Position numbers and translations under genes: made by a program. A stretch of 64,000 nucleotides of DNA. It comes from an uncultured Rhodocyclaceae bacterium (GTDB taxonomy: Bacteria; Pseudomonadota; Gammaproteobacteria; Burkholderiales; Rhodocyclaceae). The DNA is taken from the NCBI GenBank assembly GCA_907163225.1, contig OU015322.1:1398501-1462500 (forward strand), written 5' to 3'. The notes below the pieces were generated by a model that saw only the letters and a program-made list of their open reading frames with translations, did no database searches and had not been told where the DNA came from. Numbering within the stretch: position 1 is the first letter of the stretch; each line of letters opens with the position of its first letter. Shown here one piece after another: positions 5,297 through 54,714 of the stretch.

Positions 5297-6739
5297 TCAA
5301 TCTCGCTTTCTTGCAGCATAAAGTTCGTGAAATGTCTTTCCCGATGCTACCGGTAGATCGCGTCCAGCGGTCCACTCAGGCACCAGGCCAAAAATTCGAA
5401 TGCGGCCGCTGCCGTCGGCCAGCCAGTTCAGATAGCGCGCCGCGCGCCGGGCAAACCAGCGGTAGAGCGCCGGCCGGCCGGCGATCCACGCCCAGACATT
5501 CAAGCTCAGGCGCTCTGACCATGGGCGCAAGCCGCGCTCATTCTGCTCTTCACGCAGACGATGCATCAGCGTCGGCAGCGGAATATCAACCGGGCAAACG
5601 CTGCCGCACTGGTTGCAGCCCGTGGACGCGTGCGGCAGATCAAGGGCATTTTCGATGCCAGTGTACAGCGGCGTCAGCACCGACCCCATCGGGCCGGGAT
5701 AAACCCAGCCGTAGGCGTGGCCGCCGAGCGAGAAATAGACCGGGCAGTGGTTCATGCAGGCGCCGCAGCGGATGCAGCGCAGCATGTCCTGGTAGTCGGA
5801 GCCGAGCAGATTGGCGCGACCATTGTCGACGAGGATGAAAATCGTTTTTTCCGGGCCGTCGTGGTCGCCGGGCTGCTTCGTTCCGGTCAGCAAGGACACG
5901 TAGTTCGAGATGCTCTGGCCGGTCGCCGAACGCGGCAGCAGGCGCATCAGCGTGGCGAAGTCCTCCAGCGTCGGGACGATTTTCTCGATGCCGGTGATCA
6001 CGACGTGCACCTTGGGCAGCGTCGTCACCATGCGGCCGTTGCCTTCGTTGGTGACCAGCGCCGCCGAGCCGGTTTCGGCGATCAGGAAATTGGCGCCGGA
6101 AATGCCCATTTCTGCGCTCAGGAAATGCTGGCGGAGCACCGCGCGCGCCTCCTTCGCCATCTCGGGAATATCGGCTGAAGTTCGCGTCTCAAGCGGCCGG
6201 CCATGCTCTTTGGCAAACAGCGCCTCGACCTCGCCGATGGTCTTGTGCACCGCCGGCGCGATGATGTGCGATGGCGGCTCGCCGGCCAGTTGCACGATGT
6301 ATTCGCCGAGATCAGTCTCGACCGGCTGAATGCCGGCGGCACTCAGCGCCTCATTGAGCCGCGCCTCTTCGGAGAGCATCGATTTCGACTTGGCCACCTT
6401 GGTCACGCCATGACGGCGGGCGATGTCGACGACCAGTTTGCTCACTTCTTCGCCGTCACGCGCCCACAGCACCTCGGCGCCGCTGGCCGTGGCCCGTTCC
6501 TCGAAAAGTTCGAGCCAGACATCGAGATCGGCCAGCGTTCGATTTCGGATGTTTTTTCCGGTTGACCGCAGCAACTCGAAATCCAGCCCATCCTCGGCCA
6601 GCGAGGCAAGACCCTTGGCCCGCTTGGCGACAAACAGCGGCTTGGCTTTCTGCAAAGTCCGCTGCAGGGCCGCATTGCGCACCTTTTCACCGGCCCGCGC
6701 ATGAAAGTGCATCGCCTGCGAATGCTTCACCGCCGCCAT
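5297..6739 (-). CDS. lutB: LutB-type iron-sulfur protein of lactate oxidation
   Basis: 480 residues. A LUD-type N-terminal region (SKSMLSEEARLNEAL, GISGANFLIAETGSAALVTNEGN) is followed by two ferredoxin-type clusters, CIRCGACMNHCPVY and CNQCGSVCPVDIPL, at about residues 310-375. It is the large Fe-S subunit passing electrons from lactate oxidation. The ATG at 6739 overlaps the lutA stop by one base (TGATG). The ALDH-like start lies 2 bp after this stop. The gene contains a copy of the dispersed CGGTCAACCGGAAAA motif at 6551-6572. Confidence 0.92.
   Translation of the reverse strand: MAAVKHSQAMHFHARAGEKVRNAALQRTLQKAKPLFVAKRAKGLASLAEDGLDFELLRSTGKNIRNRTLADLDVWLELFEERATASGAEVLWARDGEEVSKLVVDIARRHGVTKVAKSKSMLSEEARLNEALSAAGIQPVETDLGEYIVQLAGEPPSHIIAPAVHKTIGEVEALFAKEHGRPLETRTSADIPEMAKEARAVLRQHFLSAEMGISGANFLIAETGSAALVTNEGNGRMVTTLPKVHVVITGIEKIVPTLEDFATLMRLLPRSATGQSISNYVSLLTGTKQPGDHDGPEKTIFILVDNGRANLLGSDYQDMLRCIRCGACMNHCPVYFSLGGHAYGWVYPGPMGSVLTPLYTGIENALDLPHASTGCNQCGSVCPVDIPLPTLMHRLREEQNERGLRPWSERLSLNVWAWIAGRPALYRWFARRAARYLNWLADGSGRIRIFGLVPEWTAGRDLPVASGKTFHELYAARKRD
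6551..6572 (-). repeat. dispersed motif copy (CTGCGGTCAACCGGAAAA type)
   Basis: Reading on the minus strand gives GCTGCGGTCAACCGGAAAAA, the best match to the consensus of a motif that recurs through the window. It lies inside lutB, coding strand. Confidence 0.7.
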
Positions 6740-7467
6740 CAATCGCAGCCGCCGGCCAGCACTTCGGCGATATGCAAAACACGCGTCGTCTCATCGCCAC
6801 GGCGGCGCAGTCGGCCTTCAATATTGAGCAGGCAGCCGAGATCGCCGCCAACCACCGCATCGGCTCCTGCGGCCAGAATGGAATCACACTTGCGATCGAC
6901 AATCTGAGTCGATACCTCACCGAATTTCACCGCGAATGCGCCGCCGAATCCGCAACATTCCTCGCAGTCCGGCATTTCCTTGAGCGATAGCCCGCGCACC
7001 TGCATCAGCAACTCACGCGGCTGTCGCTTGATGCTCAACCCGCGTAGCCCCTTGCAGGAATCGTGATAGGTCACGCTGCCGTCAAACATGGCCGATGCCA
7101 AATCCTGCTTGGCCACATCGGCCAAAAAACTCGTCAGCTCGTAGGTGCGCGCCGCCAGAGCACGCGCCCGCGGGCCCCAATGCGAATCATCAGCGAACAA
7201 TTGCGGATAGACATTCCGGATCTGGTCGGTGCATGAGCCCGAGGGAATCACCACGGCGTCATAGCCTTCCAGTTCGGCAATCGCCTTCCTCGCCAGATCG
7301 CTGGCAAGGGCTCGATTTCCCGCACTCCAGGCCGGTTGACCGCAGCAAGTCTGCCCTTCCGGGACAATTACCTCGCCGCCCAGCCCTTCAAGCAGACGCA
7401 GCGCAGCAAAGCCGACCGACGGTCGCATCAGATCGACCAGGCAGGTAACGTAGAGAGCTAAGCGCAT
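6739..7467 (-). CDS. lutA: LutA-type cysteine-rich (CCG domain) lactate oxidation subunit
   Basis: 242 residues with two Cys-rich CCG motifs: GEVIVPEGQTCCGQPAW near residue 45 and PDCEECCGFGGAFAVKF near residue 175, each with upstream Cys/Asp ligand segments (VTCLVDLMRP, YHDSCKGLRGL). These bind a non-cubane iron-sulfur cluster in heterodisulfide-reductase-like proteins. It is the first gene of the lut operon. The ATG at 7467 gives the usual N-terminus MRLALYVTCLVD. It is transcribed divergently from the iclR gene, with 70 bp between the starts. Confidence 0.92.
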   Translation of the reverse strand: MRLALYVTCLVDLMRPSVGFAALRLLEGLGGEVIVPEGQTCCGQPAWSAGNRALASDLARKAIAELEGYDAVVIPSGSCTDQIRNVYPQLFADDSHWGPRARALAARTYELTSFLADVAKQDLASAMFDGSVTYHDSCKGLRGLSIKRQPRELLMQVRGLSLKEMPDCEECCGFGGAFAVKFGEVSTQIVDRKCDSILAAGADAVVGGDLGCLLNIEGRLRRRGDETTRVLHIAEVLAGGCD

Positions 7468-7537
7468 GCTAATATTGCGGCGCACAAGAAAATGAAGTGG
7501 CTAATGCTACTCAAACCGCACCAATAAAGGAATCCAG

Positions 7538-9672: not shown

Positions 9673-11952
9673 TTATACGGCATCAACCACCGTGAGTGCG
9701 GTCATATTGACGATCCGACGCACTGTCGCGGTCGGGGTCAGGATGTTAACCGGCTTGGCAGCCCCCAGAAGGATTGGACCAATGGTCAGGTTGTCACCCG
9801 CCGCAACCTTGAGCAGGTTGAACGAGATGTTGGCTGCGTCCAGCGTCGGCATGACCAGCAGGTTGGCCTGACCCTTGAGGCGGGAGTTCGGGAAGGCACT
9901 TTGGCGAATGCGTTCGTCGAGCGCCGCGTCACCGTGCATTTCCCCCTCTACTTCGAGATCCGGCGCCCGCTGGCTGAGAATGGCCAACACTTCGCGCATC
10001 TTTAGCGAGGTCGGCGTATCTTCCGTGCCGAAGGTTGAGTGCGACAGCAGCGCCACCTTGGGCTGAATACCGAAATTGCGGATTTCTTCGGCCGCCAGCA
10101 AAGCCATATCGGCCAGTTGACCGGCTGTCGGATTGTAATTGACGTAGGTGTCGCCAATGAACACGGTGCGCCCCGGCAGCATCAGCAGGTTCATCGCGTA
10201 GTACCGATCCAGGTCGCCGCGGGTGCCGATGACGCTCTGAACATAGTCGCGATGGGTCTCATGGCGACCGAAGGTGCCGCAAATGAGGCCGTCGGCATAG
10301 CCAAGACGAACCATCAGCGCACCATACAGGGTGGCCCGGCGACGCACTTCGCGGCGGGCGTAATCGGGCGAGACGCCTTTGCGCTCCATGAGTCCGTGAT
10401 AGGTAGTCGAGAACTCTTCAAAGTGCTGATCGAAAAACTCGCAGTTGTCCGCGTGGACGACCTCGAAGTCCTCCCCTTCGCGGATACGCAGGCCAGCAGC
10501 CTCGATACGGCGACTAATTTCGCTGGTCCGACCGATGAGGACGGGCCGGGCAATGCCTTCATCACGAATAACCTGAACTGCCCGCAGCACACGCTCGTCT
10601 TCACCTTCGGCAAAGACGATGCGCTTGGGCGCCATCTTGGCCTGCGAAAAGACCGGTTTCATGATCATGCCGGAGTGGTAGACGAATTCGTTGAGGCCCT
10701 GGAGGTAGGCATCCCAGTCCTTGATCGGCCGGGTGGCGACGCCGGAGTCCATGCCGGCTTTGGCGACAGCCGGGGCGATCTTGACGATCAGGCGCGGATC
10801 GAACGGATTCGGGATCAGGTATTCCGGGCCGAAGCTGGCAACTTTTTCACCGTAGGCGCGGGCGGCGACTTCCGACTGTTCGGCGCGAGCAAGTTCGGCG
10901 ATGGCCTTGACGGCAGCCATCTTCATCTCTTCGGTGATGGTGGTCGCGCCGACATCAAGGGCGCCCCGGAAGATGAAGGGGAAGCAGAGGACGTTGTTGA
11001 CCTGGTTCGGGTAGTCCGAGCGGCCGGTACAGATGATGGCGTCGTTGCGGACGCTCTTGACCAGTTCCGGGGTGATTTCCGGGGTCGGGTTGGCCAGCGC
11101 CATGATCAGCGGGTTGGCGGCCATCTTGGCGACCATTTCCGGCTTGAGGACACCACCGGCGGAGAGGCCGAGGAAGACATCGGCGTCGGCGATGACTTCA
11201 CCGAGAGTACGGGCGTCGGTGACTTTGGAATATCGGGCCTTGATTTCGTCCATTTCTTCGACCCGGCCTTCGTAGACCAGGCCTTTGATGTCGGTGACCC
11301 AGATGTTGGCGGGCGGGGCGCCGAGCATGACCAGCAGGTCGAGACAGGCGAGTGCGGCGGCACCAGCGCCGGAGGTGACGATTTTTACGGTCGACAGGTC
11401 TTTGCCGATCAAATGCAAACCGTTCAGGACGGCGGCGCCGACGACGATGGCGGTGCCGTGCTGGTCGTCATGGAAGACGGGGATCTTCATCCGTTCGCGC
11501 AGCTTCTTTTCGATGTAGAAGCACTCGGGGGCTTTGATGTCTTCGAGGTTGATGCCGCCGAAGGTGGGTTCGAGCGAGGCGATGGTGTCGATCAGTTTGT
11601 CGGGGTCACGTTCTTCGATTTCGATGTCGAAGACGTCGATGTTGGCAAATTTCTTGAAGAGGACGCCTTTACCTTCCATGACCGGTTTGGCGGCGAGCGG
11701 GCCGATGGCGCCGAGGCCGAGAACGGCGGTGCCGTTGGTGATGACGCCGACCAGGTTGGCACGCGCTGTAAGGGTGCTGGCTTCACGTGGATCGGCGACG
11801 ATTTCTTCACAGGCGAAGGCAACGCCCGGCGAGTAGGCCAGTGACAGGTCGTACTGGTTGGTCAGCTGCTTGATCGGGGTGACCGCAATTTTGCCCGGCT
11901 TGGGCTCGCGGTGATAGTAGAGCGCTGCTTCACGTAGTTTCCGAGAATCCAT
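9673..11952 (-). CDS. maeB: NADP-dependent malic enzyme with C-terminal phosphotransacetylase-like domain
   Basis: 759 residues, the usual length of the MaeB hybrid. Residues 1-430 hold the malic enzyme: [70 protein letters not shown] and ALANPTPEI. From about residue 440 a phosphotransacetylase-like domain follows ([56 protein letters not shown]). It decarboxylates malate to pyruvate; the PTA-like domain usually regulates it through acetyl-CoA. The start at 11952 follows GGAGAC by 4 bases. It is divergent from pckG, placing two gluconeogenic/anaplerotic enzymes side by side. Confidence 0.93.
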
Positions 11953-14114: not shown

Positions 14115-15308
14115 ATGTACCGCCCAGCCCAACGCCTTGCCGACATAGAGCCATTCCACGTCGTCGAACTGCTGACCCGTGCCCGGCAGCTTGAAGCCGA
14201 GGGCCGCGACATCATTCACATGGAAGTCGGCGAGCCGGATTTCCCGACACCTGAGCCGATCACGAATGCTGCGGTCAACGCGATAAAAGGCGGAAAAACG
14301 AAATACACGCAGGCGCTGGGTTTGCCTGAGTTGCGCGAGGCGATCAGCGCCTTCTACCGCGAGCGCTATGGCGTCATCGTGCCGGCCGGGCGGATTGCCA
14401 TCACCAACGGCGCATCTGGCGCGTTGAATCTGGCCTTTGCCTGCCTGGCCGATCCCGGCAGCGAATGGCTGCTGACCGACCCCGGCTATCCGTGCAATCG
14501 TCACATTTTGCGTGCTTTTGACGGTCGACCGCTGAACATCCCGGTTGGCCCCGAGACCAATTTCCAACCGACGCCGGCGCTGCTGCGCCAGCACTGGAAG
14601 CCGAGTACGGCCGGCCTGCTGGTCGCCTCACCCGCCAATCCGACCGGCACGCTGCTGACGCTGGCCGAGATCAAGGCGCTGGCTGAGGTTTGTCGCGAGA
14701 ACAGCGGCCATTTTCTGGTCGACGAGATTTATCACGGGCTGACCTATGCCTCGGCGGAAGCCCCTTTGGGGAACGAATACGACGTCCCTACCGCCTGTGC
14801 GGCCGGCGACGACATCTGGGTGATCAACAGCTTCTCCAAATATTTCCAGATGACAGGCTGGCGCCTGGGCTGGATGGTCATTCCGGATGCCTACGTACGC
14901 GACGTCGAAAAGCTGGCGCAAAATCTCACGCTCTGCCCGTCCACGCCAGCCCAATACGGCGCACTGGCCGCCTTCGAGCCGGAAACCATCGCCATCCTTG
15001 AATCCCGGCGCGCCGAATTCCGGATACGCCGTGACTTTCTCGCCCCGGCGCTCGAACAAATTGGCTTTCGCGTCACCGCAAAACCAGCGGGCGCGTTCTA
15101 CCTTTATTGCGACAGCTCGGCACTGGCTGACGACAGCTTCACGCTGGCCAAGGATTTGCTGGAGAAAACAGGGGTCGCTGCGACGCCGGGGCTCGATTTC
15201 GGCAGCAACGCCCCCGAAAAGCACATCCGCTTCGCCTACACGACCAGCGTTGAGCGGCTAGCTGAAGCAGCGGAACGCCTAAGCCGTTATTTCGGCCGGC
15301 AGCGTTAG
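14115..15308 (+). CDS. PLP-dependent class I/II aminotransferase
   Basis: 397 residues. The PLP lysine is in INSFSKYFQMTGWRLGWM (about residue 243), with the upstream cofactor Asp/Tyr motif DEIYHGLTY and the carboxylate-binding Arg in HIRFAYTTS near the C-terminus. The N-terminal phrase HMEVGEPDFPTPEPI is typical of aspartate/aromatic/alanine aminotransferases of subgroup I. Substrate cannot be set from sequence. GGAGAA lies 5 bases before the ATG at 14115. Its last 30 bp overlap the convergent ampD gene. Confidence 0.88.
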   Translation: MYRPAQRLADIEPFHVVELLTRARQLEAEGRDIIHMEVGEPDFPTPEPITNAAVNAIKGGKTKYTQALGLPELREAISAFYRERYGVIVPAGRIAITNGASGALNLAFACLADPGSEWLLTDPGYPCNRHILRAFDGRPLNIPVGPETNFQPTPALLRQHWKPSTAGLLVASPANPTGTLLTLAEIKALAEVCRENSGHFLVDEIYHGLTYASAEAPLGNEYDVPTACAAGDDIWVINSFSKYFQMTGWRLGWMVIPDAYVRDVEKLAQNLTLCPSTPAQYGALAAFEPETIAILESRRAEFRIRRDFLAPALEQIGFRVTAKPAGAFYLYCDSSALADDSFTLAKDLLEKTGVAATPGLDFGSNAPEKHIRFAYTTSVERLAEAAERLSRYFGRQR

Positions 15309-15845
15309 CCCGGGGTAGCGCGCGCGCAGCGCGGCCCAATCGAAACAGGGCCCGGGGTCAGTCTTGCGTCCGGGCGCAATATGGCAGTGTCCGGCGATGG
15401 CGGTGATTGGGTACTGCGTGCGCAACGCATCCAGCACGCGCCAGAGTGCCGAGTATTGTTCGGCCGTGAACGGCTGCGTATCCGAGCCCTCAAGTTCGAT
15501 GCCCACCGAATAGTCGTTGCAGTTGTCCCGCTCGCACCAGCATGACTGCCCGGCATGCCAGGCCCGCTGACCACAGCCGACGAACTGGATGATCCGACCA
15601 TCTCGTCGGATGTAAAAATGGGCCGAGACCTGCATCTCGAAAATTGTCGAAAAATACGGGTTGACCGTGGGATCCAGCCGATTGAGGAAAAAGTCCTCGA
15701 CCCAGTCGCCGCCAAACTCGTCCGGCGGCAAACTGATGTTGTGGATGACCACCAATGACACCGGATCGCCGGCCGGCCTTTCGCCAAAATTGGGCGAAGG
15801 CAGCCAGCGCACGCCATCCAGCCAACCGTCAGCCTGCCACGACAT
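15279..15845 (-). CDS. ampD: 1,6-anhydro-N-acetylmuramyl-L-alanine amidase AmpD
   Basis: 188 residues with the amidase_2 zinc ligands in LVVIHNISLPP (His), GQRAWHAG and IAGHCHIAPGRKTDPGPCFDW (His and Asp). The stretch SVGIELEGSDTQPFT is diagnostic of AmpD. It is cytoplasmic and recycles anhydromuropeptides. The ATG at 15845 overlaps the stop of pilR by one base or more (TGATG/ATGA arrangement); a GTG one codon earlier is also possible. The 3' end overlaps the convergent aminotransferase gene. Confidence 0.95.
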   Translation of the reverse strand: MSWQADGWLDGVRWLPSPNFGERPAGDPVSLVVIHNISLPPDEFGGDWVEDFFLNRLDPTVNPYFSTIFEMQVSAHFYIRRDGRIIQFVGCGQRAWHAGQSCWCERDNCNDYSVGIELEGSDTQPFTAEQYSALWRVLDALRTQYPITAIAGHCHIAPGRKTDPGPCFDWAALRARYPGLTLPAEITA

Positions 15846-17161: not shown

Positions 17162-18765
17162 TTCGCCGCGTGGGCGCCGTTCAGTTCTGGCAACAGACAC
17201 GTGTCGTTTCTCCCTGCAACAATGAAATGCGCCCCGCTGGTCGAGGCCGCCAGCTCCAGGCTGGCGCCGTTGGTCGCGCACAACTCCCGGGCGATAAACA
17301 AGCCAAGCCCGGTGCCCTGCGTATGGGTCGTGAAAAATGGTTCAAAAATCTGCTCGCGCACGGTTTCCGGAACACCCGGGCCATCGTCGAGCACATGCAA
17401 TTCTACCCGCCCATCGTTGGCGACGCCCGCCAGTTCAATGCGAACGGCACCCGGGCCACGGCTCGAGTGGCGCAGGGCGTTGCTGACCAGGTTCCACAGA
17501 ACCTGATGCAGATGCGAGCGATCGAAACACAGGCTGAGCGGCATGGTTTCAAGCACGACGACGCCCGGCACCAGGTTTTCGGTTGCCATGAAGTGTTCGA
17601 GAAATCCGGCGCAAAACTCATCGGCACGAAGCAGCTCCGGCTGCGCCCTGCTCTGGCGCCCAAGCTCCAGGATATCGCCCACAATCCGATCCAGACGAAT
17701 TACATTGTCATTCAAAATGCGAAACAGCCGCTCCTGCATCTCGACCCGGCGCTCTTCGCGCAGCAGTTCGCCAGCATGGCCAATCGCCGACAACGGGTTG
17801 CGAATCTCATGGGCAATACTTGCGGTCAACCGACCCAGCGAAGCCAATTTCAACTGCTGCGCGCGCTCCTTGATGCGACCCACATCCTCCAGAAACACAA
17901 GGATTTCACCATCGGTACTCGCAGTCCGCTCAAAACGCGCCTGCAAATCCCGCCCATCCGCACCGCAGAAATGAAGCCCGCCCTCACCGCCCCCCTCAAG
18001 CCACCGCTGAATGGCCGTAGCCAGTGTCGGCACCTGCGATTCAAGCGAGGCTTCGCCCTCGTTCGGCAAGCCAAGCATCGCACTCGCCACGGGATTGCAT
18101 CGGCTAACCAGCCCGTTCTGGGCAACGATCAACACGCCATCCTGCATTCGCTCGACCACACGCTGACTGATACGAATCTGGTTATCCAGCGCCACCCCTC
18201 TTCGCCGCGCCAGGTCCTCATTGACCATCGCTCGCTGGCCCAGCAAGCGGGCCAAAATAGCCGTCGCGAAAAAGCCGGCGGAGATAAACCCGGCCTGTAC
18301 GATCGATGCCGAATCGAAGCCCAGGGCAACGATCCCGTACGCTTGTGAGAGCAACACGGCCATCGTGGCCAAGGCTGCATAAAAAAGTACGAGGCTGCCC
18401 CGCCCAACCAGGCTGGCTGCCGCGAGCGATACCAGCAGAAATACGCTCAGCCCGCTGCCCACGCCACCAGCCATCGACATCAGCGAACATACGACCGCGA
18501 TATCGACGGACATCTGCACCGACAACTGCTGATTGAAATAGCGCCGCCAGTGCGTTGCCAAAAGCAGTCCGGCAAGCGTCGAAACAATATAAACGCCGGT
18601 CAACAGAAACAGAACCGGCGAAGGCTGCAGATTCAGGCGCGATGTCCATTCATGCGGAAAAACGATCGCCAGAAAAAACAATGCCGCCAACACGAGGCGG
18701 TAAAGATTGAAATACTGGAACGAACGCCAGTTGGCCTCCCAAGTTGAAGAGAGCCAATTGACCAT
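17158..18765 (-). CDS. pilS: PilS-type sensor histidine kinase
   Basis: 535 residues. About six hydrophobic segments in residues 15-175 form the membrane sensor, followed by a PAS-like region (MQDGVLIVAQNGLVSRCNPVASAMLG). The H-box is SIAHEIRNPLSAIGHAGELL and the ATPase has NLVSNALRH, LDDGPGVPE and GTGLGLFIAREL. PilS senses pilin in the inner membrane and phosphorylates PilR. The ATG overlaps the stop of the small upstream gene and its stop overlaps the pilR start, both by 4 bp. Confidence 0.93.
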   Translation of the reverse strand: MVNWLSSTWEANWRSFQYFNLYRLVLAALFFLAIVFPHEWTSRLNLQPSPVLFLLTGVYIVSTLAGLLLATHWRRYFNQQLSVQMSVDIAVVCSLMSMAGGVGSGLSVFLLVSLAAASLVGRGSLVLFYAALATMAVLLSQAYGIVALGFDSASIVQAGFISAGFFATAILARLLGQRAMVNEDLARRRGVALDNQIRISQRVVERMQDGVLIVAQNGLVSRCNPVASAMLGLPNEGEASLESQVPTLATAIQRWLEGGGEGGLHFCGADGRDLQARFERTASTDGEILVFLEDVGRIKERAQQLKLASLGRLTASIAHEIRNPLSAIGHAGELLREERRVEMQERLFRILNDNVIRLDRIVGDILELGRQSRAQPELLRADEFCAGFLEHFMATENLVPGVVVLETMPLSLCFDRSHLHQVLWNLVSNALRHSSRGPGAVRIELAGVANDGRVELHVLDDGPGVPETVREQIFEPFFTTHTQGTGLGLFIARELCATNGASLELAASTSGAHFIVAGRNDTCLLPELNGAHAAK

Positions 18766-18995: not shown

Positions 18996-19333
18996 CGCGT
19001 CCCCAGAAACAAAAAAAGCCCACGAAAAATCCGCAAGCCTCAATGGATTTGGGTCAAAACCAGCGCACTTGAAAGTATCTCAAGTACGTTAAAAAGACGT
19101 TTCAGACCCAGCATTTACGTCGTGCATCAACACAATCATCAAAGCGCAATTCGCCCGCAAGACATCAAGCAAGATACTCGAAGAATTTACCATATATATT
19201 TAGCGAGTATCGCAGCAGCCGGCAAGGTGAAATCTCAATTTCATTGATAACGAAAGTCACCTGCCAAGGCGTATAGGCAGCATGCCGGAATGACGTCTGC
19301 CTTTGACGCTGCGGTCAACCGTGAAAAAGGCCG
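18996..19333. other. intergenic region upstream of the pilSR operon
   Basis: No gene is supported here. The stretch 19170-19260 is AT-rich (ACCATATATATTTAGCGAG) and may hold the promoter of the PP0621-pilSR transcript, read on the minus strand. A dispersed-motif copy sits at 19309-19328. Confidence 0.4.
19309..19328 (+). repeat. dispersed motif copy (CTGCGGTCAACCGGAAAA type)
   Basis: CTGCGGTCAACCGTGAAAAA, one mismatch from consensus, lying between genes and just next to a terminator hairpin, a position where uptake-type signals are often found. Confidence 0.7.
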
Positions 19334-19362
19334 AAAAAAAGGCGCCAGTCAGCCTTGGCGCC
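19334..19362 (-). terminator. intrinsic terminator of the SRPBCC-domain gene
   Basis: On the minus strand GGCGCCAAGGCTGACTGGCGCC is followed by TTTTTTT: a 7-bp stem with a T-run, ending about 50 bp after the stop. Confidence 0.85.
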
Positions 19363-20116: not shown

Positions 20117-20153
20117 GCGCTGATTCAAGCAATCCCTCCTTCAACGACCGTTC

Positions 20154-20173
20154 CTGCGGTCAACCCGGAAAAC
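20154..20173 (+). repeat. dispersed motif copy (CTGCGGTCAACCGGAAAA type)
   Basis: CTGCGGTCAACCCGGAAAAC lies in the narK leader, ending 9 bases before the ATG; it contains the only GGAA near the start codon. With GACCG just upstream it can also pair as GACCG/CGGTC. Confidence 0.65.
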
Positions 20174-20181
20174 AGCCCAAA

Positions 20182-21396
20182 ATGGACAAGAAATCATTCC
20201 TTCAGGCCGGCCACACGCCGACACTGCTTGCCGCCTTCCTCTACTTCGATCTTGCCTTCATGGTCTGGGTTCTGCTCGGCCCGCTCGGCATCGGCATCGC
20301 CAAGGATCTTGGCCTCTCTCATGCCGAAAAGGGCATGATGGTCGCCACCCCGGTGCTGGCCGGTGCGCTGTTGCGCATCATCATGGGCATTCTGGTCGAT
20401 CGCCTGTCGCCGAAAAAGGCAGCGATCATCGGGCAGGTCGTGGTCATCGCCACCATGCTCTACGCCTGGCAGGTCGGCGTCCATTCCTACGCTGAAGTGC
20501 TGATTCTCGGCCTCTTCCTCGGTGTCGCCGGCGCTTCCTTCGCCGCCGCGCTGCCGCTGGCTTCCCGCTGGTATCCGGCCGAGCATCAGGGCACGGCCAT
20601 GGGCATCGCCGGTGCCGGCAACTCGGGTACGGCGCTGGCCGCCCTGTTCGCCCCCGGTCTGGCGGCTGCTTTTGGCTGGGTCAATGTCTTCGGCATCGTG
20701 CTGATTCCGCTGGTCATCGTGCTGATCGCCTTCATCTTCATGGCCAAGGACGCGCCGGATGCACCGCCGCCGAAGACCTTTGCCGAATACATGAAAGTGC
20801 TCAAGGACAAGGATGCCTGGTGGTTCATGTTCTTCTACTCGGTAACTTTCGGTGGCTTCGTCGGTCTGGCTTCTTCGCTGGTCATCTACTTCAACACCCA
20901 GTACGGGCTTGATCCGAAGATGGCCGGCTTCTTCACCGCCGGCTGCGTCTTCGCCGGTTCGCTGGTGCGCCCGATTGGCGGCAACGTGGCCGACCGCATC
21001 GGCGGCGTCAAATCGCTGACCGTGATGTACATCTTCGCCGCCATCTTTCTGGCCATCGTCAGCTTCGGCCTGCCCGAAGCGTGGATGGCGCTGGTTGCCT
21101 TCGTTGGTGCCATGCTGGCGCTGGGCATGGGTAACGGCGCCGTGTTCCAGCTCGTGCCGCAGCGCTTCCGCAAGGAAATCGGCGTGATGACCGGCCTGGT
21201 TGGTATGGCCGGCGGTGTCGGTGGTTTCTACCTGGCTTCCAGCCTCGGTTACTCGAAGCAACTGACCGGTAGCTACCAGTCCGGTTTCCTGATCTTTGCC
21301 GCCCTGGCGGTGCTGGCGCTGGTTGGCCTGACCGGCGTCAAGACCCGCTGGCGCACGACCTGGGGTGCCAGCCACCTGACGGCAGCCAAGATCTGA
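20182..21396 (+). CDS. nasA: NarK/NasA-type MFS nitrate/nitrite transporter
   Basis: 404 residues with about 12 membrane segments. The nitrate signature GAGNSGTALAALFAPGLA is at about residue 140, and the second NNP-family motif GMAGGVGGFYLASSLG at about 345. DRLSPKKA is the MFS loop 2-3 motif. It belongs to the nitrate/nitrite porter family in the inner membrane. Context with the NasT regulator and nrtABC points to assimilatory uptake; a respiratory role cannot be ruled out. The ATG at 20182 gives the family N-terminus MDKKSFLQAGHTPTLL; no good ribosome site is seen, consistent with leader control. Confidence 0.9.
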   Translation: MDKKSFLQAGHTPTLLAAFLYFDLAFMVWVLLGPLGIGIAKDLGLSHAEKGMMVATPVLAGALLRIIMGILVDRLSPKKAAIIGQVVVIATMLYAWQVGVHSYAEVLILGLFLGVAGASFAAALPLASRWYPAEHQGTAMGIAGAGNSGTALAALFAPGLAAAFGWVNVFGIVLIPLVIVLIAFIFMAKDAPDAPPPKTFAEYMKVLKDKDAWWFMFFYSVTFGGFVGLASSLVIYFNTQYGLDPKMAGFFTAGCVFAGSLVRPIGGNVADRIGGVKSLTVMYIFAAIFLAIVSFGLPEAWMALVAFVGAMLALGMGNGAVFQLVPQRFRKEIGVMTGLVGMAGGVGGFYLASSLGYSKQLTGSYQSGFLIFAALAVLALVGLTGVKTRWRTTWGASHLTAAKI

Positions 21397-34937: not shown

Positions 34938-36244
34938 GTGATCCATCAGTGCCTGAGTGTGGGAGTTCGCCCCCCAGGCGAGTGCTTTGCGTCGACGATG
35001 AACAGAATATCCTGTCATCACTACGGCGGCTGTTTCGCCTTCAGGGCTATCAGATACAGACTGCCGTCAGCGGTGCCGATGGCTTGAAATTACTCGAGAC
35101 AGAGCCCGTTGATCTGATTGTTTCGGACATGCGCATGCCGGAAATGGATGGTGCTCAGTTTCTTGAACAAGTCAGGCTGCGCTGGCCGGACACCATCCGT
35201 ATTTTGTTGACCGGCTATGCCGACATCGCTTCCACGGTCGACGCGATAAACAAGGGAGAAATCTACCGTTACATCGCGAAACCGTGGAATGACGACGACC
35301 TGTTGATGGTCGTGCGCCATGCGCTGGAGGGCAAATCCTTAAAGCGAGAGAAGGAGCGACTGGAGGCACTGACGGCCGCCCAGAACGAAGCGTTGAAGGA
35401 TCTCAACGCCAACCTTGAACTCAAAGTCATGGAACGCACGGTTGCGTTGCGTCAGTCGCATGACAAGCTAAAAACCAGTTTTCTCACTTCGATCAAGGTG
35501 TTTGCCAACCTGATCGAACTGCGCGGCCCGGCTTTGGCCGGGCATTCTCGCCGGGTCGCCGATCTTGCGCGCAAAATTGCGACGATCATGAACCTGAGTG
35601 CGGCAGAGTGTCAGGATATATTTCTGGCCGGCTTGCTTCACGACATCGGCAAAATCGGATTGCCGGACACCTTGCTCACAAAAGCAGTGCCCAATTTTAC
35701 GGGCGATGAACTCGGTCTCTATCGAAAGCATCCCGCCAAGGGTGAGCAGGCGCTAATGGCGCTGGCCGAGTTGCGGGGAGCGGCCGAAATTGTGCGTTCC
35801 CACCACGAACGGTATGACGGACAGGGATTTCCCGAGGGCTTAAGTGGCTTGGCGATTCCCATTGGCGCACGCATTCTGGCCGTGGCCAATGATTTTGACG
35901 GACTCCAGATCGGCACCCTGTCGATGCGCCACCTCCATGTTGACGACGCCAGGAAACTGATCGCGGAGAGCCGGGGTAAGCGCTACGATCCCGCTGTTGT
36001 AGATGCTTTTTTGCAAGCTAGCGGTGGCATGGCGTTGGAGAGCAAGGGCGAGGAACAGGTGAGTCCGGCAAATTTGCATCCAGACATGGTGCTGGCGCGC
36101 GATATTCTCTCTCGTGACGGCGTGCTCCTCCTGGCGGCTGACCATGTTCTCGATGTCAGCCTGATTCGACAAATAAGAGAGTATGTCGGGACCGAAGGTG
36201 GCGCCACGCCGATATTCATTCGCACCCAGCGGAGATCTTCATGA
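34934..36244 (+). CDS. REC-HD-GYP response regulator (c-di-GMP phosphodiesterase type)
   Basis: 436 residues. Receiver (VLCVDDEQNILSSLRRLF, Asp near 64 in LIVSDMRMPEMDG, KPWNDDDLL), a coiled coil, then an HD-GYP domain: HSRRVADLARKIA, AGLLHDIGKIGLPD, RSHHERYDGQGFPEGL. The GYP triad reads GFP, a common tolerated variant. The C-terminal 60 residues (LHPDMVLARDILSRDGVLLLAADHVLDVSLIRQI) resemble the small protein encoded at 31631. The start is GTG, overlapping the kinase stop (GTGA). Confidence 0.9.
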   Translation: MSDPSVPECGSSPPRRVLCVDDEQNILSSLRRLFRLQGYQIQTAVSGADGLKLLETEPVDLIVSDMRMPEMDGAQFLEQVRLRWPDTIRILLTGYADIASTVDAINKGEIYRYIAKPWNDDDLLMVVRHALEGKSLKREKERLEALTAAQNEALKDLNANLELKVMERTVALRQSHDKLKTSFLTSIKVFANLIELRGPALAGHSRRVADLARKIATIMNLSAAECQDIFLAGLLHDIGKIGLPDTLLTKAVPNFTGDELGLYRKHPAKGEQALMALAELRGAAEIVRSHHERYDGQGFPEGLSGLAIPIGARILAVANDFDGLQIGTLSMRHLHVDDARKLIAESRGKRYDPAVVDAFLQASGGMALESKGEEQVSPANLHPDMVLARDILSRDGVLLLAADHVLDVSLIRQIREYVGTEGGATPIFIRTQRRSS

Positions 36245-39506: not shown

Positions 39507-39586
39507 TCGCTTCAGCAAAGGATTCAGAACTTTGTTTGCCCGGCGTTCGTGCCTTCGGTAAGCGTGGACTCTCAAGCGCTGCCAAC

Positions 39587-39610
39587 GCTACGGTCAACCG
39601 GAATTTTTGG
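39587..39610 (+). repeat. dispersed motif copy (CGGTCAACCGGAATTTTTG type), intergenic
   Basis: GCTACGGTCAACCGGAATTTTTGG is followed by CAAAATCCGGAAAA, so CCGGAATTTTTG and CAAAATCCGG can pair. It sits directly before a terminator and is the clearest non-coding copy. Confidence 0.75.
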
Positions 39611-39627
39611 CAAAATCCGGAAAAGCC

Positions 39628-41089: not shown

Positions 41090-43030
41090 ATGCCCTACCT
41101 CAAACTTTCCTCTGCCTGCCTTGCTTACGGCCACGTGCCGCTTCTCGATCACGCCGATTTCCTGCTCGATCCGGGCGAAAGGGTCGCCCTGATCGGTCGC
41201 AACGGCACCGGCAAGTCATCGATGCTCGCCGCCATGGCCGCCGGTTCCGGGCGTGGCCGGCTGGATGATGGCGAGGTCTGGGTGCAGCCGGGCATCCGCG
41301 TCGGCTACGTGCCGCAGGAGCCGCCTTTCGAGGCTGAGGATACGGTCTTCGAGGCGGTCATTTCCGGCATGGGTGAAAACGCGGCGATTCTCGCCGAATA
41401 CCACGAAGTCTCGCACAAACTGGGCGAGATTGACGCCGATCACGACGTCTTGCTCGAACGCATGTCCGAGCTGCAGCATGAGTTGGAGGCGCGCGGTGCC
41501 TGGGCCTTCGAGGCGCAGGCCGAACGGGTCATCGAGCGCTTCAGTCTGGATGCGGACGCCAAGGTCGGCAGCCTGTCCGGCGGTCAGAAAAAGCGTCTGG
41601 CCCTGGCACAAGCATTGGCCGTCTCCCCGGAAGTCCTGCTCCTCGACGAGCCGACCAATCACCTCGACATCGCCGCCATCGAATGGCTGGAGAGCCTGCT
41701 GATCGAATCCGGCGTCACTCTGTTTTTCATCACCCACGACCGTTCTTTCCTCGACCGCGTGTGCACCCGCATCGTCGAGCTGGATCGCGGCAAGCTGGTC
41801 AGCTTCCCCGGCAGTTTCAAGGATTACCAGTTGCGCAAGGAAGCCATGCTGCACGAGGAAGGCCTGGCCAACGCCCGCGCCGACAAGCTGCTCAAGGAAG
41901 AGGAAATCTGGATCCGCAAGGGCGTCGAAGCGCGCCGGACGCGCGCCGTGTTCCGCGTCCAGCGGCTCGATCAATTGCGGGCCGAACGGCAGGCCCGGCG
42001 CGAGCGGATGGGCAAGGTCAATCTGCAACTCGATTCCGGTGACAAGAGCGGCAAGCTGGTGGCCGAACTCGACCACGTCTATAAATCCTACGGTCAACGG
42101 GAAATTGTGCGCGATTTCTCAACCCGCATTCAGCGCGGCGACAAGATCGGCCTGATCGGCCCCAACGGCGCCGGCAAGACCACCCTGCTCCGCCTGATCC
42201 TCGACGAAATCAAGCCCGATTCCGGCATCGTGCGCCAGGGTACGAAAATGGATATCGCCTATTTCGACCAGTTCCGCACGCAGCTCGATCCCAATTCAAC
42301 GCTGTCCGACGTCATTTCCCCGGGTTCGGACTGGGTCGATATCGGCGGCGCCCGCAAACACGTGATCGGCTACCTCGAAGACTTCCTGTTTGCGCCGGAA
42401 CGTGCCCGGTCTCCCGTCAGTTCGCTGTCCGGCGGCGAGCGCAACCGCCTGCTGCTGGCTCGCCTGTTCGCCAAGCCGGCCAACGTGCTGGTTCTCGACG
42501 AACCGACCAACGACCTCGATATCGAAACGCTGGAACTGCTCGAAGAGTTGCTCCAGACCTACGAAGGCACGCTTTTCCTGGTCAGCCATGACCGGACTTT
42601 CATCGACAACGTGGTAACCCAGACCATCGCCGCCGAAGGCGACGGCGTCTGGAAGGAATACGCCGGCGGTTACACCGACTGGGCGACCTACAAGGCCAGC
42701 GTGACCAAGGATGCGCCCAAGGCCAAGGTGGAAGCCAAGCCGGCCGCCAAGGCCGCCGAGCCCGTCAAGGCCGTCGAAGCGGCCAAGCCGAAAGGCGAAA
42801 AACTGTCGTGGAAAGAGCAGCGTGAACTGGAGGAGCTACCCGGAAAAATCGCCGGCTTGGAGGCTGAGCAGGCCGAACTGAGCAAGCGTCTCGCCGATGC
42901 TTCCCTCTACCAAACTGACCCGGCAGCGGCGCAAAAAGCCTCCGACCGCCTGGCGGCCATCGACGATGAATTGATGGTCATGCTCGAACGCTGGGAAGGG
43001 CTCGAAGCACGCGCCGGGAACCCGGCATAA
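41090..43030 (+). CDS. uup: ABC-F ATPase Uup
   Basis: 646 residues with two ABC domains: Walker A GRNGTGKSS and GPNGAGKTT, signatures SLSGGQKKRLALAQAL and SLSGGERNRLLLARLF, Walker B LLLDEPTNHLDI and LVLDEPTNDLDIE. The linker between them is rich in Arg/Lys helices (ARADKLLKEEEIWIRKGVEARRTR), and a C-terminal Ala/Lys linker leads to a coiled coil (ELEELPGKIAGLEAEQAELSKRL). No membrane segments. Uup proteins act on ribosomes and affect transposon excision and DNA branch tolerance. Confidence 0.94.
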   Translation: MPYLKLSSACLAYGHVPLLDHADFLLDPGERVALIGRNGTGKSSMLAAMAAGSGRGRLDDGEVWVQPGIRVGYVPQEPPFEAEDTVFEAVISGMGENAAILAEYHEVSHKLGEIDADHDVLLERMSELQHELEARGAWAFEAQAERVIERFSLDADAKVGSLSGGQKKRLALAQALAVSPEVLLLDEPTNHLDIAAIEWLESLLIESGVTLFFITHDRSFLDRVCTRIVELDRGKLVSFPGSFKDYQLRKEAMLHEEGLANARADKLLKEEEIWIRKGVEARRTRAVFRVQRLDQLRAERQARRERMGKVNLQLDSGDKSGKLVAELDHVYKSYGQREIVRDFSTRIQRGDKIGLIGPNGAGKTTLLRLILDEIKPDSGIVRQGTKMDIAYFDQFRTQLDPNSTLSDVISPGSDWVDIGGARKHVIGYLEDFLFAPERARSPVSSLSGGERNRLLLARLFAKPANVLVLDEPTNDLDIETLELLEELLQTYEGTLFLVSHDRTFIDNVVTQTIAAEGDGVWKEYAGGYTDWATYKASVTKDAPKAKVEAKPAAKAAEPVKAVEAAKPKGEKLSWKEQRELEELPGKIAGLEAEQAELSKRLADASLYQTDPAAAQKASDRLAAIDDELMVMLERWEGLEARAGNPA

Positions 43031-43065: not shown

Positions 43066-44274
43066 ATGACATCAACGAACAACACCTGGCGCACGCCCCT
43101 CGTCATCCTGACCGTCGGTTGCATCATCCTGACGCTGTCGATGGGCGTCCGCCACACGGCGGGCCTTTTCCTGCAGCCGATGACGACCGAGCACGGCTGG
43201 AGTCGCGAGACCTTCTCGTTTGCCTTCGCCCTGCAAAATCTCGTCTGGGGCCTCGGCTCACCCTTTGCCGGTGCCATCGCCGATCGCTATGGCGCCGGGC
43301 GCACGCTGCTCATCGCGGCGGCGCTCTACGTGCTTGGACTAGTGCTCATGTCAGTGTCACCGACGCCGCTGACCCTCGACCTGTCGGCCGGCCTGCTGAT
43401 CGGCCTCGGCCTGTCGGGAACGACCTTCCCGGTCATCATGGGCGTCATCGGCCGGCACACGACGCCAGAGAAGCGCAGCCTCGCCCTCGGCATCGCCAGT
43501 GCCGGCGGCTCGTTCGGCCAGTTTGCCGTGCTCCCCATTGGCCAGATGATGATCTCCACCTACGGCTGGCAGAGCGCGCTCGTCCTGCTCGCCTGCGGTG
43601 TGGGTCTGATCGCCCCGCTCGCCTATGCCATGGCCGATGGCCACAAACCGTCGGCCGGAGCCGGGCAATCGGTCGTCGAGGCGCTGCACGAGGCAAGCCG
43701 CGAGCGCAGCTTCCACTACCTGTTCTGGGGCTATTTCGTTTGTGGCTTCCAGACGGCTTTCATCATGCTGCATCTGCCGTCCTATCTGGTCGATGCCGGC
43801 ATGTCGGCCAATGTCGGCATGACCGCCGTGGCGCTGATCGGTCTGTTCAATATTTTTGGCTCATTCTATTTCGGCTGGGCAGGCGGGCGTTCAAGCAAGA
43901 AAAACCTGCTGGTCTGGATCTACGGCCTGCGCGCCGTGGCCATATTCGTTTTTATGCTGATTCCCCTGTCGACCGCAACAGCCTGGATTTTCGCCGCCGT
44001 CATTGGCATCCTGTGGCTGGCCACCGTGCCGCTGACCAATGGCCTGATCGCCCAGATCTTTGGGCTGCGCTACATGTCAATGCTGACCGGTGTGGTTTTC
44101 CTTGGCCACCAGCTCGGCAGCTTCCTCGGCGCCTGGCTGGGCGGGCGAATTTTCGATGAAACCGGCTCGTACTCGCTGGCCTGGTCCATCTCGATTGGCC
44201 TGTCGATCCTCGCCGCCATCTGCTCGTGGCCGGTCAACGAAAAACCCCTGGCCCGGCTGAGCGCGGCAACGTGA
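43066..44274 (+). CDS. MFS transporter, monocarboxylate/oxalate-formate antiporter-like
   Basis: 402 residues with about 12 membrane segments. SMGVRHTAGLFLQPMTTEHGWSRETFSFAFALQNLVWGL and GAIADRYGAGRTLL match the MCT/OxlT-like subgroup, whose substrates are organic acids. The central loop (ADGHKPSAGAGQSVVEALHEASRERSF) is cytoplasmic. The substrate is not known. Its stop overlaps the start of a 44-codon gene (GTGA). Confidence 0.82.
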   Translation: MTSTNNTWRTPLVILTVGCIILTLSMGVRHTAGLFLQPMTTEHGWSRETFSFAFALQNLVWGLGSPFAGAIADRYGAGRTLLIAAALYVLGLVLMSVSPTPLTLDLSAGLLIGLGLSGTTFPVIMGVIGRHTTPEKRSLALGIASAGGSFGQFAVLPIGQMMISTYGWQSALVLLACGVGLIAPLAYAMADGHKPSAGAGQSVVEALHEASRERSFHYLFWGYFVCGFQTAFIMLHLPSYLVDAGMSANVGMTAVALIGLFNIFGSFYFGWAGGRSSKKNLLVWIYGLRAVAIFVFMLIPLSTATAWIFAAVIGILWLATVPLTNGLIAQIFGLRYMSMLTGVVFLGHQLGSFLGAWLGGRIFDETGSYSLAWSISIGLSILAAICSWPVNEKPLARLSAAT

Positions 44275-52240: not shown

Positions 52241-52345
52241 GGGCGTAGGGCCGTCCGGATGTTTGGGTCGCTTAGCAACTCCCAATTTCGGTTTTGACTG
52301 GCACTACGTCGCTTGGAAAAACACTTGTAACAAATTCTGGGCAAC

Positions 52346-52375: not shown

Positions 52376-52388
52376 GAAGCAAGAAGTA

Positions 52389-52754: not shown

Positions 52755-52888
52755 GGGATTTCCTTATCGACAAGAGGCAACAAAATCTGAATTGATCGGA
52801 GATCAGGAACTACCTAATCAGTCTGCGATTATAACAATAATTTATTTGTGATGGAAAAACTTGGTGCACCGCAGAATCCGAGGAAACC

Positions 52889-53365
52889 TCATAGTCCAAG
52901 GTGCGTACTTGATACGCTTTCTCCTCCCTCCGACCAGATTTCCTTGAAGCGCGACAAATAGGGTCGGAGTTCATCCGGTTCGTCGATGAGCAATTTGCTG
53001 CGTGGCAAGTCGCGATCAAACCGAATCAAGGCGTATTTGTCATCAACCAAAATCATGCCGTCACGCAAATGGGCGAGTTGCGGCGGCGTCTCTATCGCTT
53101 TGGCGAGGTGGCCGTATGTTGTTAGCAGGTCTTGAAACTGTGGATGGCATTGACGCAAGGGTGAGGCGTTGCGAACGGCGATTTGCAGGATATCGCCGTG
53201 CCCAGCCAGGAGAAGGCGCTTGATGTGTTCCTGACGGGGACGCGCTTCGAGCTTCAGCGCGCTTAGGTCTTCGTCATAGATACATATCTTGCGGCAGGCA
53301 ATAGCCAAAAGGCGGTCAATTGCCGTCTGAAAATCTGTCCAGGATGTAATCAATTCGCGAGCCAT
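52889..53365 (-). CDS. hypothetical protein, DUF7931-like
   Basis: 158 residues starting MARELITSWTDFQTAIDRLLAIACRKICIYDEDLSALKLE. The pattern of a small phospholipase-D-like fold without the HKD motif (HIKRLLLAGHGDILQIAVRNASPLRQCHPQF, ALIRFDRDLPRSKLLIDEPDEL) fits the DUF7931 group. No membrane segment. It is divergent from rlmD with only 38 bp between starts. Confidence 0.7.
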   Translation of the reverse strand: MARELITSWTDFQTAIDRLLAIACRKICIYDEDLSALKLEARPRQEHIKRLLLAGHGDILQIAVRNASPLRQCHPQFQDLLTTYGHLAKAIETPPQLAHLRDGMILVDDKYALIRFDRDLPRSKLLIDEPDELRPYLSRFKEIWSEGGESVSSTHLGL

Positions 53366-53403
53366 GGCGCTTAGTGTAACTGATTGATAAAATTCGCGCT
53401 TTT

Positions 53404-54714
53404 TTGGAGTTGACCGTGCCAATCGGGATCATTGCATCGCTGGACCATGAGGCGCGGGGAATCACACGTCTGGATGGAAAGGCCATATTTGTTGATGGCG
53501 CGTTGCCGGGCGAAACGGTCGAGTATGCCAGTTTCCGGAGAAAATCTAAGTTTGAACTGGCGCACCTGGTGCGCGTCCTCAAGCCATCGAACGCCCGTGT
53601 TGAACCACGGTGCCCGCATTTTGGCGTATGTGGCGGTTGTGCGATGCAGCACATGGATCCTTCGGCCCAGCTTGCTGCCAAGCAGCGCGTGCTTGAGGAC
53701 AGTCTTTGGCACATTGGCCGCATTCGCCCGGAAGCGATATTGCCGCCGATCCAGGGGGAGCCTTGGGGATATCGCCATCGCGCCCGTCTTGCCGTTCGCC
53801 AGGTCGCAAAAAATGGTGAAGTGCTGATTGGCTTTCATGAGTGGCGCAGCAGCTACATCGCAGACATTCACAGCTGTGTGATATTGCCGCCCCATGTTTC
53901 GGCGTTATTGCTGCCAATGCGGAAGCTATTTCAGGCTTTGTCGATTGCCGACCAGATTCGCGAGGCTGAAGTGGCTGTGGGTGAGCATTGCACAGCAATT
54001 CTTTTGCGCATACTTACCCCGTTGACCGCAGCAGACGAGCAATATTTACGTGACTTCGCAGATCTCCACGCAATTGTTTTCTATTTGCAGCCAAAGGGGC
54101 CAGATACGGTCTATCGCTTTCATCCATTGCCCGGGCCGCGTTTGTCTTATACGTTGCCAGAGTTTGGACTTGAGCTTGATTTCAAGCCGACGGATTTCAC
54201 CCAGGTCAACCATGCGGTGAATCGCGTACTGGTGCGCCGCGCCTTGCGCCTGCTTGACCCGCAGCCGGAAGAGCGAATTGCCGACATGTTTTGTGGCCTG
54301 GGTAATTTCACCTTGCCGATTGCCCGATCAGGGGCAATGGTCGTTGGCATCGAAGGCAGTGCAGCGCTGGTTAAGCGCGGGGGGGAGAGTGCTCAGGCAA
54401 ATGGTCTGGCCGATCGCGTTGAGTTTGGTGTTGCCAATTTATTCGAATGTACGGAGCAGTCGCTGGCTCGTCTTGGTCATTTCGACAAAATGCTGATCGA
54501 TCCGCCGCGTGAGGGGGCCGTTGAACTGGTCAGGTCGCTTGGCAAAGATGCGCCGAGCCGCATCGTGTATGTTTCCTGCAATCCGGGAACGCTGGCCCGA
54601 GATGCGACTGTCTTGGTAACCGAGAAAGGCTATCGATTCGTGGCGGCTGGCGCGGTCAATATGTTCCCGCACACGGCACATGTTGAGTCGATTGGAGTTT
54701 TTGAGCGGCCGTGA
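53404..54714 (+). CDS. rlmD: 23S rRNA (uracil-1939-C5)-methyltransferase RlmD
   Basis: 436 residues. N-terminal TRAM domain ([37 protein letters not shown]) and the Fe-S motif [10 protein letters not shown] are followed by the methyltransferase: [22 protein letters not shown] and the catalytic Cys in [15 protein letters not shown]-dependent, cytoplasmic. The TTG at 53404 is the first start of the frame; GTG 53416 is an alternative, and neither has a good ribosome site. Confidence 0.93.

Follow-up and report, generated by a model that had tools for sequence, protein, structure and literature searches.

A dispersed motif resembling a DNA uptake sequence, with two dialects, in Dechloromonas/Azonexus (Rhodocyclales)

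Introduction

Why should a short word recur many times over expectation along a bacterial chromosome, within genes as well as between them? The question is raised by CGGTCAAC, an 8-mer dispersed over a window of 64,000 nucleotides (the whole stretch of DNA analysed here, i.e., bases 1,398,501–1,462,500 of a single contig of 3,463,890 bases) in a genome of the genus Dechloromonas/Azonexus, hereafter G000. An initial annotation of this window had proposed that the word belongs to a DNA uptake sequence, a class of motifs which, in the portion of PMC12616744 available to us, is described only for Pasteurellaceae and Neisseriaceae. At a rough probability of 84%, we consider that the motif is indeed a DNA uptake sequence, serving as a self-recognition tag for natural transformation in Dechloromonas/Azonexus. 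The proposal of the initial annotation is supported by the existence of dialects, by motif-poor species, and by the conservation and decay of an orthologous site, while the uptake function itself is inferred.

Abundance and Structure of the Motif

The window contains 26 exact copies of CGGTCAAC, against 2.37 expected from dinucleotide shuffles (none of 100 shuffles reaches 26) and 5.1 expected under an order-3 Markov model. The initial annotation had recognized this excess, with about two copies expected for any 8-mer in 64 kb, but its count by eye (about 21) was too low. Over the whole 3.46 Mb genome, the 10-mer TGCGGTCAAC is found 408 times (202 forward and 206 reverse), whereas the same pattern read backwards, taken as a control, is found 11 times (6 forward, 5 reverse). 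Further counts were obtained from a 464 kb sample composed of the window and 20 stretches of 20 kb, i.e., about 13% of the G000 genome. When k-mers are counted there without any prior, CGGTCAAC and pieces of the longer motif rank at the top for every length from 8 to 14, and CGGTCAACCGGAAA reaches 36 copies where an order-4 Markov model expects 0.02. In G000, as in G111 (Dechloromonas denitrificans ATCC BAA-841) and G424, the top dispersed k-mers are those of the CGGTCRAC family.

Once aligned, the copies read t-n-C-Y-R-CGGTC(A/G)AC-CGG-AAAAA-wn-GGCC-AAAWTT-n-AAA, and the full motif (YRCGGTCAACCGGAAAAAwnGGCCAAAWTTnAAA) covers about 36 bp: a core, then two main A/T tracts in phase, whose centres are spaced by about 11 bp, and a third, weaker A/T patch. 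The first tract had been noticed in the initial annotation, but the second had been missed. A trained position weight matrix (PWM; 29.7 bits), the threshold of which was chosen so that matches in Markov sequence amount to at most 5% of the real ones, yields 175 sites in the 464 kb sample versus 8 in an order-3 Markov sequence of equal size; as with the 408 genomic copies versus 11, the frequency is far above expectation. The near-palindromic core CGGTYRACCG causes ten places to score on both strands, which leaves 165 places in the sample and, by extrapolation from 13% of the genome, about 1,230 places (1,300 matches) genome-wide. Overlapping dyad pairs are reported for simDUS in S. muelleri in the accessible part of PMC3630211. 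Moreover, perfect copies of the 13-mer CGGTCAACCGGAA outnumber those with a single mismatch, both in G000 (40 vs. 27) and in G424 (21 vs. 10), a trait attributed to uptake signal sequences (USS) and DNA uptake sequences (DUS) in what was available of PMC1626085; here it varies with the core that is chosen (see below).

Two Dialects within a Single Genus

The motif was counted in 76 genomes of the genus, using TGCGGTCRAC on the one hand and CGGTCAACCGGAA on the other hand, with dialect cut-offs set after seeing the counts. Dialect I (CTGCGGTCRAC and the distal tract) is found in 24 genomes, with up to 1,630 copies versus 22 for the control, and dialect II (RCGGTCAACCGGAA and both tracts) in 13 genomes, with 44 (G457, a thin member) to 401 copies versus 0 or 1. 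Seven genomes exceed the control by 4- to 8-fold and are classed as weak, and the remaining 32 are motif-poor, i.e., under both cut-offs, several of the latter still being 2- to 4-fold over control. Logos computed from 200 kb per genome show that in dialect I (G111 and G418) the distal tract is retained, near +25 to +29, the first tract is weak and CGG is lacking, whereas all parts of the motif are present in dialect II (G424). No such motif emerged from unbiased k-mer counts in G412 and G417, two motif-poor genomes made up of a single contig, from each of which 200 kb was analysed. As for TACGTCAA, examined as a third dialect in G417, it was rejected, its listed contexts reading as a Tyr-Val-Lys codon run. 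Separately, G418 (L222–L231) shows an unrelated 8-mer, GTCGTCAG/CTGACGAC, 189 times in 200 kb (47 expected), along with related forms, perhaps due to a repetitive gene.

At a broader taxonomic scale, among 300 genomes of the same order, only G000 (408) and G111 (206) have more than 41 copies of TGCGGTCAAC, and among 121 genomes of the same family (68 genera), only these two (534 and 403, respectively) have more than 129 copies of GCGGTCAAC; the variant TGCGGTCGAC was counted inside the genus only. When named genomes were scanned with CTGCGGTCAACCGGAAAA, at least 83 stretches matched. Among the matches listed, 50 carry the label Dechloromonas/Azonexus, three Rhodocyclaceae, two Zoogloeaceae, 18 only Beta-, Gamma- or Proteobacteria, and ten belong to other taxa (Nitratireductor and Pseudonocardiales, two each; Gallionella, Bacteroidetes, Sphingobium, Desulfotomaculum, Halanaerobium and Bacteroidales). 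Still among these matches, 11 of the 12 Dechloromonas/Azonexus groups have 1.25–7.5 further sites per 10 kb; a second site was found neither in the ten stretches from other taxa nor in X1_MetaBAT.22, EBPR_Bin8 and Azonexus C21.

Conservation and Decay of an Orthologous Site

The site at position 14271 of the window, located in an aminotransferase gene, was traced in the 30 best-scoring of 63 genomes with a close match, a choice because of which relatives of G000 are over-represented. Its exact core (TGCGGTCRAC) is present in seven of ten dialect II genomes and four of eight dialect I genomes, and in none of the three weak and nine motif-poor genomes; pooled, this amounts to 11/18 motif-bearing versus 0/12 weak or motif-poor genomes (Fisher P = 0.0006, uncorrected for kinship). 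With a looser test (matrix score of at least 24), the corresponding figures are 8/10, 6/8, 0/3 and 2/9 (P = 0.002, likewise uncorrected). At this site, TGCGGTCAAC occurs in 6/10 dialect II and 1/8 dialect I loci, and TGCGGTCGAC in 1/10 and 3/8, respectively. In G479 and G453, both below the cut-offs, the last base of the core is the only one to deviate (GAG and GAT).

In all 30 loci, the codons align without insertion at the site, and the differences are substitutions, some of which change an amino acid. At the one orthologous position followed, the alignment thus indicates that the motif arises by point mutation. These loci bear directly on the idea that the sites were copied from a short element, either mobile or a repeat, akin to miniature inverted-repeat transposable elements or repetitive extragenic palindromes. 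While such an element would explain the strong consensus and the excess of perfect over near-perfect 13-mers, it fits poorly with substitutions at fixed codons, with flanks that carry little information beyond about 36 bp, and with the lack of sites in the transposon cluster of the window (see below); we hold it to be the least probable of the alternatives.

In the single-gene tree of the 30 sequences, all ten dialect II rows fall within one strongly supported group of 15, the others being four motif-poor and one weak, as expected for one origin followed by later losses. Considering the altered sites of motif-poor species, motif loss does seem to happen, and G000 might itself carry a fossil, inherited from a former tag-dependent uptake and now decaying. 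Yet, its strong consensus, the excess of perfect 13-mers over single mismatches and a comEC match lying in a long open frame devoid of stops all point to a current or recent function, which makes a fossil extremely unlikely.

Distribution along the Chromosome

In addition to the balance between forward and reverse copies (202/206), sites are evenly shared between the G-rich strand (89) and the other strand (86) when the strands of each stretch of the sample are told apart by the sign of the GC skew (near zero in the window). Hence, the motif does not show the strict orientation relative to replication that the initial annotation had associated with segregation motifs, and polarity of the Chi/KOPS kind is disfavoured. 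According to a crude gene caller, which discards genes overlapping a better one by at least 60 bases, 113 of the 175 sites are centred inside called genes, while 65 are not wholly within them (34.4 expected), which corresponds to an intergenic preference; gaps between convergent genes hold 19 sites (9.7 expected). All 20 sampled stretches around the chromosome have sites (2–12 each).

The end of the window (54,715–64,000) is devoid of sites, where 3.7 would be expected from the remainder (Poisson P = 0.024). Pfam identifies DDE_Tnp_1, IS21-type and IS66 transposase genes in this region, as well as a Bax1-I family gene, and it also holds a tRNA-Ser and the 5S and 23S rRNA. The initial annotation had likewise seen no copies in these insertion sequence (IS) elements. 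In the 464 kb sample, the four longest stretches without any site, two of which are cut by the end of a stretch or of the window, are this IS-bearing end; L038:1–15635 (15.6 kb, 45% GC, first 2,500 bases masked), with integrase, primase-like, DDE_3 transposase, regulator and deacetylase-type genes; a part of L033 (13.6 kb) that carries metal-ATPase and efflux genes; and a part of the window (9.4 kb) occupied by ordinary genes. In our judgement, three of them look mobile or accessory and one does not. Equal density in mobile elements, which the initial annotation had set against uptake, is not what we see, with no sites in the IS cluster and the L038 stretch, but little DNA is involved, the comparison covering these two regions and not the whole genome. 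Two side observations can be made in these regions: at 63381–64000 of the window, the 5S rRNA and the 3' end of the 23S rRNA directly adjoin the IS66 genes, and at L033:9759–12293, separate open frames hold fragments of a heavy-metal P-type ATPase, with HMA/E1-E2 and hydrolase domains.

Hundreds of copies on both strands, found in all sampled stretches and lacking from the IS cluster, might also be expected of a motif organizing the chromosome, i.e., the site of a nucleoid, segregation or division protein across the core chromosome; the A/T tracts would suit a DNA-bending protein and the dialect II core is nearly palindromic. Nevertheless, we regard this alternative as unlikely, even if it ranks first among those weighed here: the motif has no polarity, its sites number 2–12 in every one of the 20 stretches, the palindrome is not kept in dialect I, and, with two dialects in one genus and no motif in the 200 kb counted from each of G412 and G417, it varies more freely than would be expected of an essential organization motif. 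A recombination or repair signal (Chi-like) or a transcription-termination element, enriched for its own function, would in turn agree with the enrichment in convergent gaps and with the copy adjoining a hairpin at 19307 in the window. However, known Chi-like signals are polar, unlike the present motif (89/86), a majority of sites are centred in called genes, and both the two A/T tracts and the dialects would be left unexplained, so that we deem this explanation very unlikely.

Uptake Machinery and Points against an Uptake Function

If the motif is a DNA uptake sequence, its carriers should have the means to import DNA. ComEC was found in 71 of the 76 genus genomes (51/51 good ones) and DprA in 75 of them (50/51 good ones), both being present in G000, while HHH_3 matches occur in 76/76 genomes (two in G000). 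Regarding type IV pili, prepilin-type signals number 16 in G000, in which a minor pilin operon (1,087,435–1,094,904) encodes PilE-like, FimT, PilV, PilW, PilX and PilY1 proteins (PilV and PilX named by position). This operon is of the same type in G111 and has a different order in G218, with shared neighbourhood genes around it; overall (L186, L187, L188), two gene orders are seen in the genus, and identity is low from one species to another. The PilE-like pilin of G000 matches the Pfam family ComP_DUS (51.8 bits). The C-terminal tail of FimT reads GGQIRMC in G000, the first R of GRxR being replaced by Q in G000 and G111, and by K or S in some others; the arginine is absent from the tail in the motif-poor G412 and G456 has a lysine, but other motif-poor species retain the arginine. 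The pilSR pair of the initial annotation is consistent with NCBIfam but could not be confirmed, the best matches being AtoC/NtrC-type and AtoS-type and below cut-off.

In G445 (C33) and G466 (C1), comEC matches come in two pieces about 33 kb apart, of which the smaller ones are weak, and in G432 (C1:1959178–1959913) in two adjacent pieces, which suggests an interruption or a frameshift. A broken comEC was considered as the cause of motif loss in G432, G466 and G420, a hypothesis at odds with the abundance of dialect II in G445.

Several results weigh against an uptake function. First, the machinery does not separate carriers from non-carriers: ComEC and DprA are equally frequent in motif-poor species, DprA was not found in the dialect I genome G469 (76 genomes searched), the listed HHH_3 match of G000 is not ComEA because it lies in a frame of 834 codons, and G445 is rich in its dialect in spite of a split comEC match, one piece of which is weak. 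Second, no pilin stands out as the receptor. The ComP_DUS match had to be rejected as a receptor mark, being not specific, because the pilin of the motif-poor G218 scores higher (95.7). Trees of the PilE-like and FimT pilins (27 and 24 rows out of 30 loci, pilE being missed in three and fimT in six) do not clearly sort by dialect or motif presence: with four labels together, the PilE tree is no better clustered than shuffles (119/200 as low) and the FimT tree slightly (30/200). Dialect II alone is somewhat clustered (25/500 and 31/500 shuffles as low, respectively), of which the near-identical sequences of G445, G459 and G460 could be the source. Third, at the orthologous site, 7/18 motif-bearing genomes have substituted forms or no site instead of the exact core, and the excess of perfect copies depends on the core chosen, as G000 has 48 perfect versus 76 singly mismatched copies of CTGCGGTCRAC, and 46 versus 57 of RCGGTCAACCGG. 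Fourth, the evenness of sites per 20 kb is not significant (variance/mean 0.58, P = 0.08), and the depletion in mobile elements comes from few regions, the L038 stretch having been chosen post hoc by its gap. Finally, none of the papers listed for Dechloromonas and for Rhodocyclales deals with the transformation of this genus; among those listed for Dechloromonas, two name it once each, a rat feeding study and a plastics review.

Sites in the Window

Sites of the window were evaluated with the PWM trained on the 464 kb sample, and their coding or intergenic status was taken from the crude gene caller. Twenty-two are supported (Table 1), namely 16 of the 26 CGGTCAAC 8-mers and six sites of the CGGTCGAC variant (at 2308, 3316, 11387, 14532, 35234 and 43976), whereas ten 8-mers fail the PWM (10116, 16595, 18597, 26832, 30411, 30565, 32387, 35206, 44231 and 47674). 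The long copies listed in the initial annotation are all found where it had placed them, and the 19 bases said to be identical between the copies at 27190 (minus strand, coding) and 39591 (plus strand, intergenic) are so, the gene caller agreeing with both contexts. In contrast, the copies at 14270 and 42090, which had been called weak, are strong, and the one at 44231, also listed as weak, fails the motif model.

Table 1. Supported uptake-like sites of the window, with their PWM scores and context.
Site	Position	Strand	Score	Context and remarks
CGGTCGAC variant	2277..2312	-	36.9	intergenic
CGGTCGAC variant	3285..3320	-	26.5	intergenic
near-consensus	6538..6573	-	41.0	in LutB-like gene
good core, weak tracts	7312..7347	-	18.3	
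CGGTCGAC variant	11383..11418	+	22.6	antisense in malic enzyme gene
uptake-like site	14267..14302	+	40.2	in PLP (pyridoxal phosphate) aminotransferase gene; traced across 30 orthologous loci
CGGTCGAC variant	14501..14536	-	21.5	same PLP aminotransferase gene as 14267
A-type ACGGTCAAC	15637..15672	-	34.2	found in several orthologous loci too
weak tracts	17818..17853	+	17.4	in sensor kinase open reading frame (ORF) 17158-18864 (-), missed by the gene caller
uptake-like site	19307..19342	+	31.2	intergenic; adjoins terminator-like hairpin
uptake-like site	20152..20187	+	37.5	in MFS transporter gene
uptake-like site	23118..23153	+	26.9	coding
uptake-like site	24809..24844	+	27.1	in CbiX gene
uptake-like site	27167..27202	-	42.2	in BPD_transp_1 permease ORF; best score
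C preceding core	29506..29541	-	23.8	
uptake-like site	33104..33139	+	26.4	in histidine kinase gene
CGGTCGAC variant	35230..35265	+	27.7	in response regulator/HD gene
A-type	39586..39621	+	38.2	intergenic
A-type	42086..42121	+	33.1	in ABC ATPase gene
CGGTCGAC variant	43945..43980	-	29.7	coding
A-type	53386..53421	-	30.5	
uptake-like site	53998..54033	-	24.7	in methyltransferase-like gene; last before IS cluster

Comparison with Known Uptake Sequences

The closest likeness is with the USS of Pasteurellaceae. Both the Hin type (AAGTGCGGT) and the Apl type (ACAAGCGGT) have GCGG in their core, in common with dialect I and the G-type copies, and, to judge from the available portions of PMC1626085 and PMC7811141, the Apl 10-mer ACAAGCGGTC shares GCGGTC with the Dechloromonas core, two A/T-rich segments follow on the 3' side about 12 bp apart, and USS likewise have no orientation bias, an excess in non-coding DNA and subclade dialects. 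Differences are also numerous. The Dechloromonas core continues as CRAC(CGG) and does not start with AAG/ACAA, its A/T tracts start some 6 bp farther away from GCGG (by our reading of the numbering in the accessible parts of the USS papers), ACGG replaces GCGG in 81% of the copies sampled from G424 (dialect II), the density is about 0.36 places per kb versus about one USS per kb, perfect copies outnumber single mismatches for longer cores only, and the sampled Dechloromonas/Azonexus carriers are betaproteobacteria with 59–62% GC. The USS core ANNNGCGGT is not matched, the core here being YRCGGTCRAC. The resemblance to the Haemophilus signal suggested in the initial annotation stands for GCGG, found in many copies, and for two A/T tracts 11–12 bp apart, but the motif is not AAGTGCGGT.

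As for the DUS of Neisseriaceae, a family of the same class as Dechloromonas (Betaproteobacteria; NCBI, and PMC12616744 in its available part), they too have dialects following phylogeny and species without obvious motif, as reported in the accessible text of PMC3630211. The motif itself is unrelated to GCCGTCTGAA and has two tracts, whereas DUS have no flanking A/T segments according to the portion of PMC1626085 at hand; the receptor of Neisseriaceae is ComP, and the ComP_DUS-matching pilin does not clearly track the motif in Dechloromonas/Azonexus. The tail of the GspH/FimT-type pilin of G000, GGQIRMC, recalls the GRxR of FimT in Legionella and other Gammaproteobacteria (PMC8897410, available in part). 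Yet, its first R is replaced in Dechloromonas, and similar tails are found in motif-poor species. FimT is not known to be sequence-specific. We found no paper on uptake sequences in Rhodocyclaceae or Dechloromonas, most subscription journals lying outside the coverage of our search; for Azonexus, the literature search gave only work on the Neisseria gonorrhoeae pilus, and Dechloromonas goes unmentioned in PMC1939737 and PMC1852404.

A Possible Third Uptake System

By analogy with Haemophilus and Neisseria, as described in the available parts of PMC7811141, PMC1626085, PMC12616744 and PMC3630211, cells of Dechloromonas/Azonexus would take up DNA and prefer that which carries the tag. The CGGTC core (GCGG in dialect I) would be bound by a receptor at the cell surface, for which a minor pilin of the type IV pilus is the likeliest candidate, and the phased A/T tracts, one helical turn apart, would help to bend or kink the DNA, thereby letting the retracting pilus pull it through the secretin. 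ComEC and DprA would then carry and process the DNA strand, while recombination with the chromosome would spread better-matching copies, with the consequence that the tag would accumulate by molecular drive. Going one step further, we lean towards the view that sequence-specific DNA uptake evolved independently in Rhodocyclales, as a third such system, in which a single genus has no fewer than two dialects and has undergone several losses. This system would have converged on the Pasteurellaceae design. Such a convergence, on a GCGG-type core and two A/T tracts one helical turn apart, would imply that the layout is imposed by the physical task of drawing DNA across the outer membrane, and not by the descent of one receptor.

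A third case would make it possible to ask which features of uptake sequences are general. Besides, the genus, of whose 76 genomes 24 carry dialect I, 13 carry dialect II and 32 are motif-poor, amounts to a natural experiment for the search of the receptor, and it is also suited to testing self-recognition against drive as the origin of uptake sequences. If uptake were confirmed, the motif would also be of practical use as a tag in the transformation of these environmental bacteria, which have been little studied.

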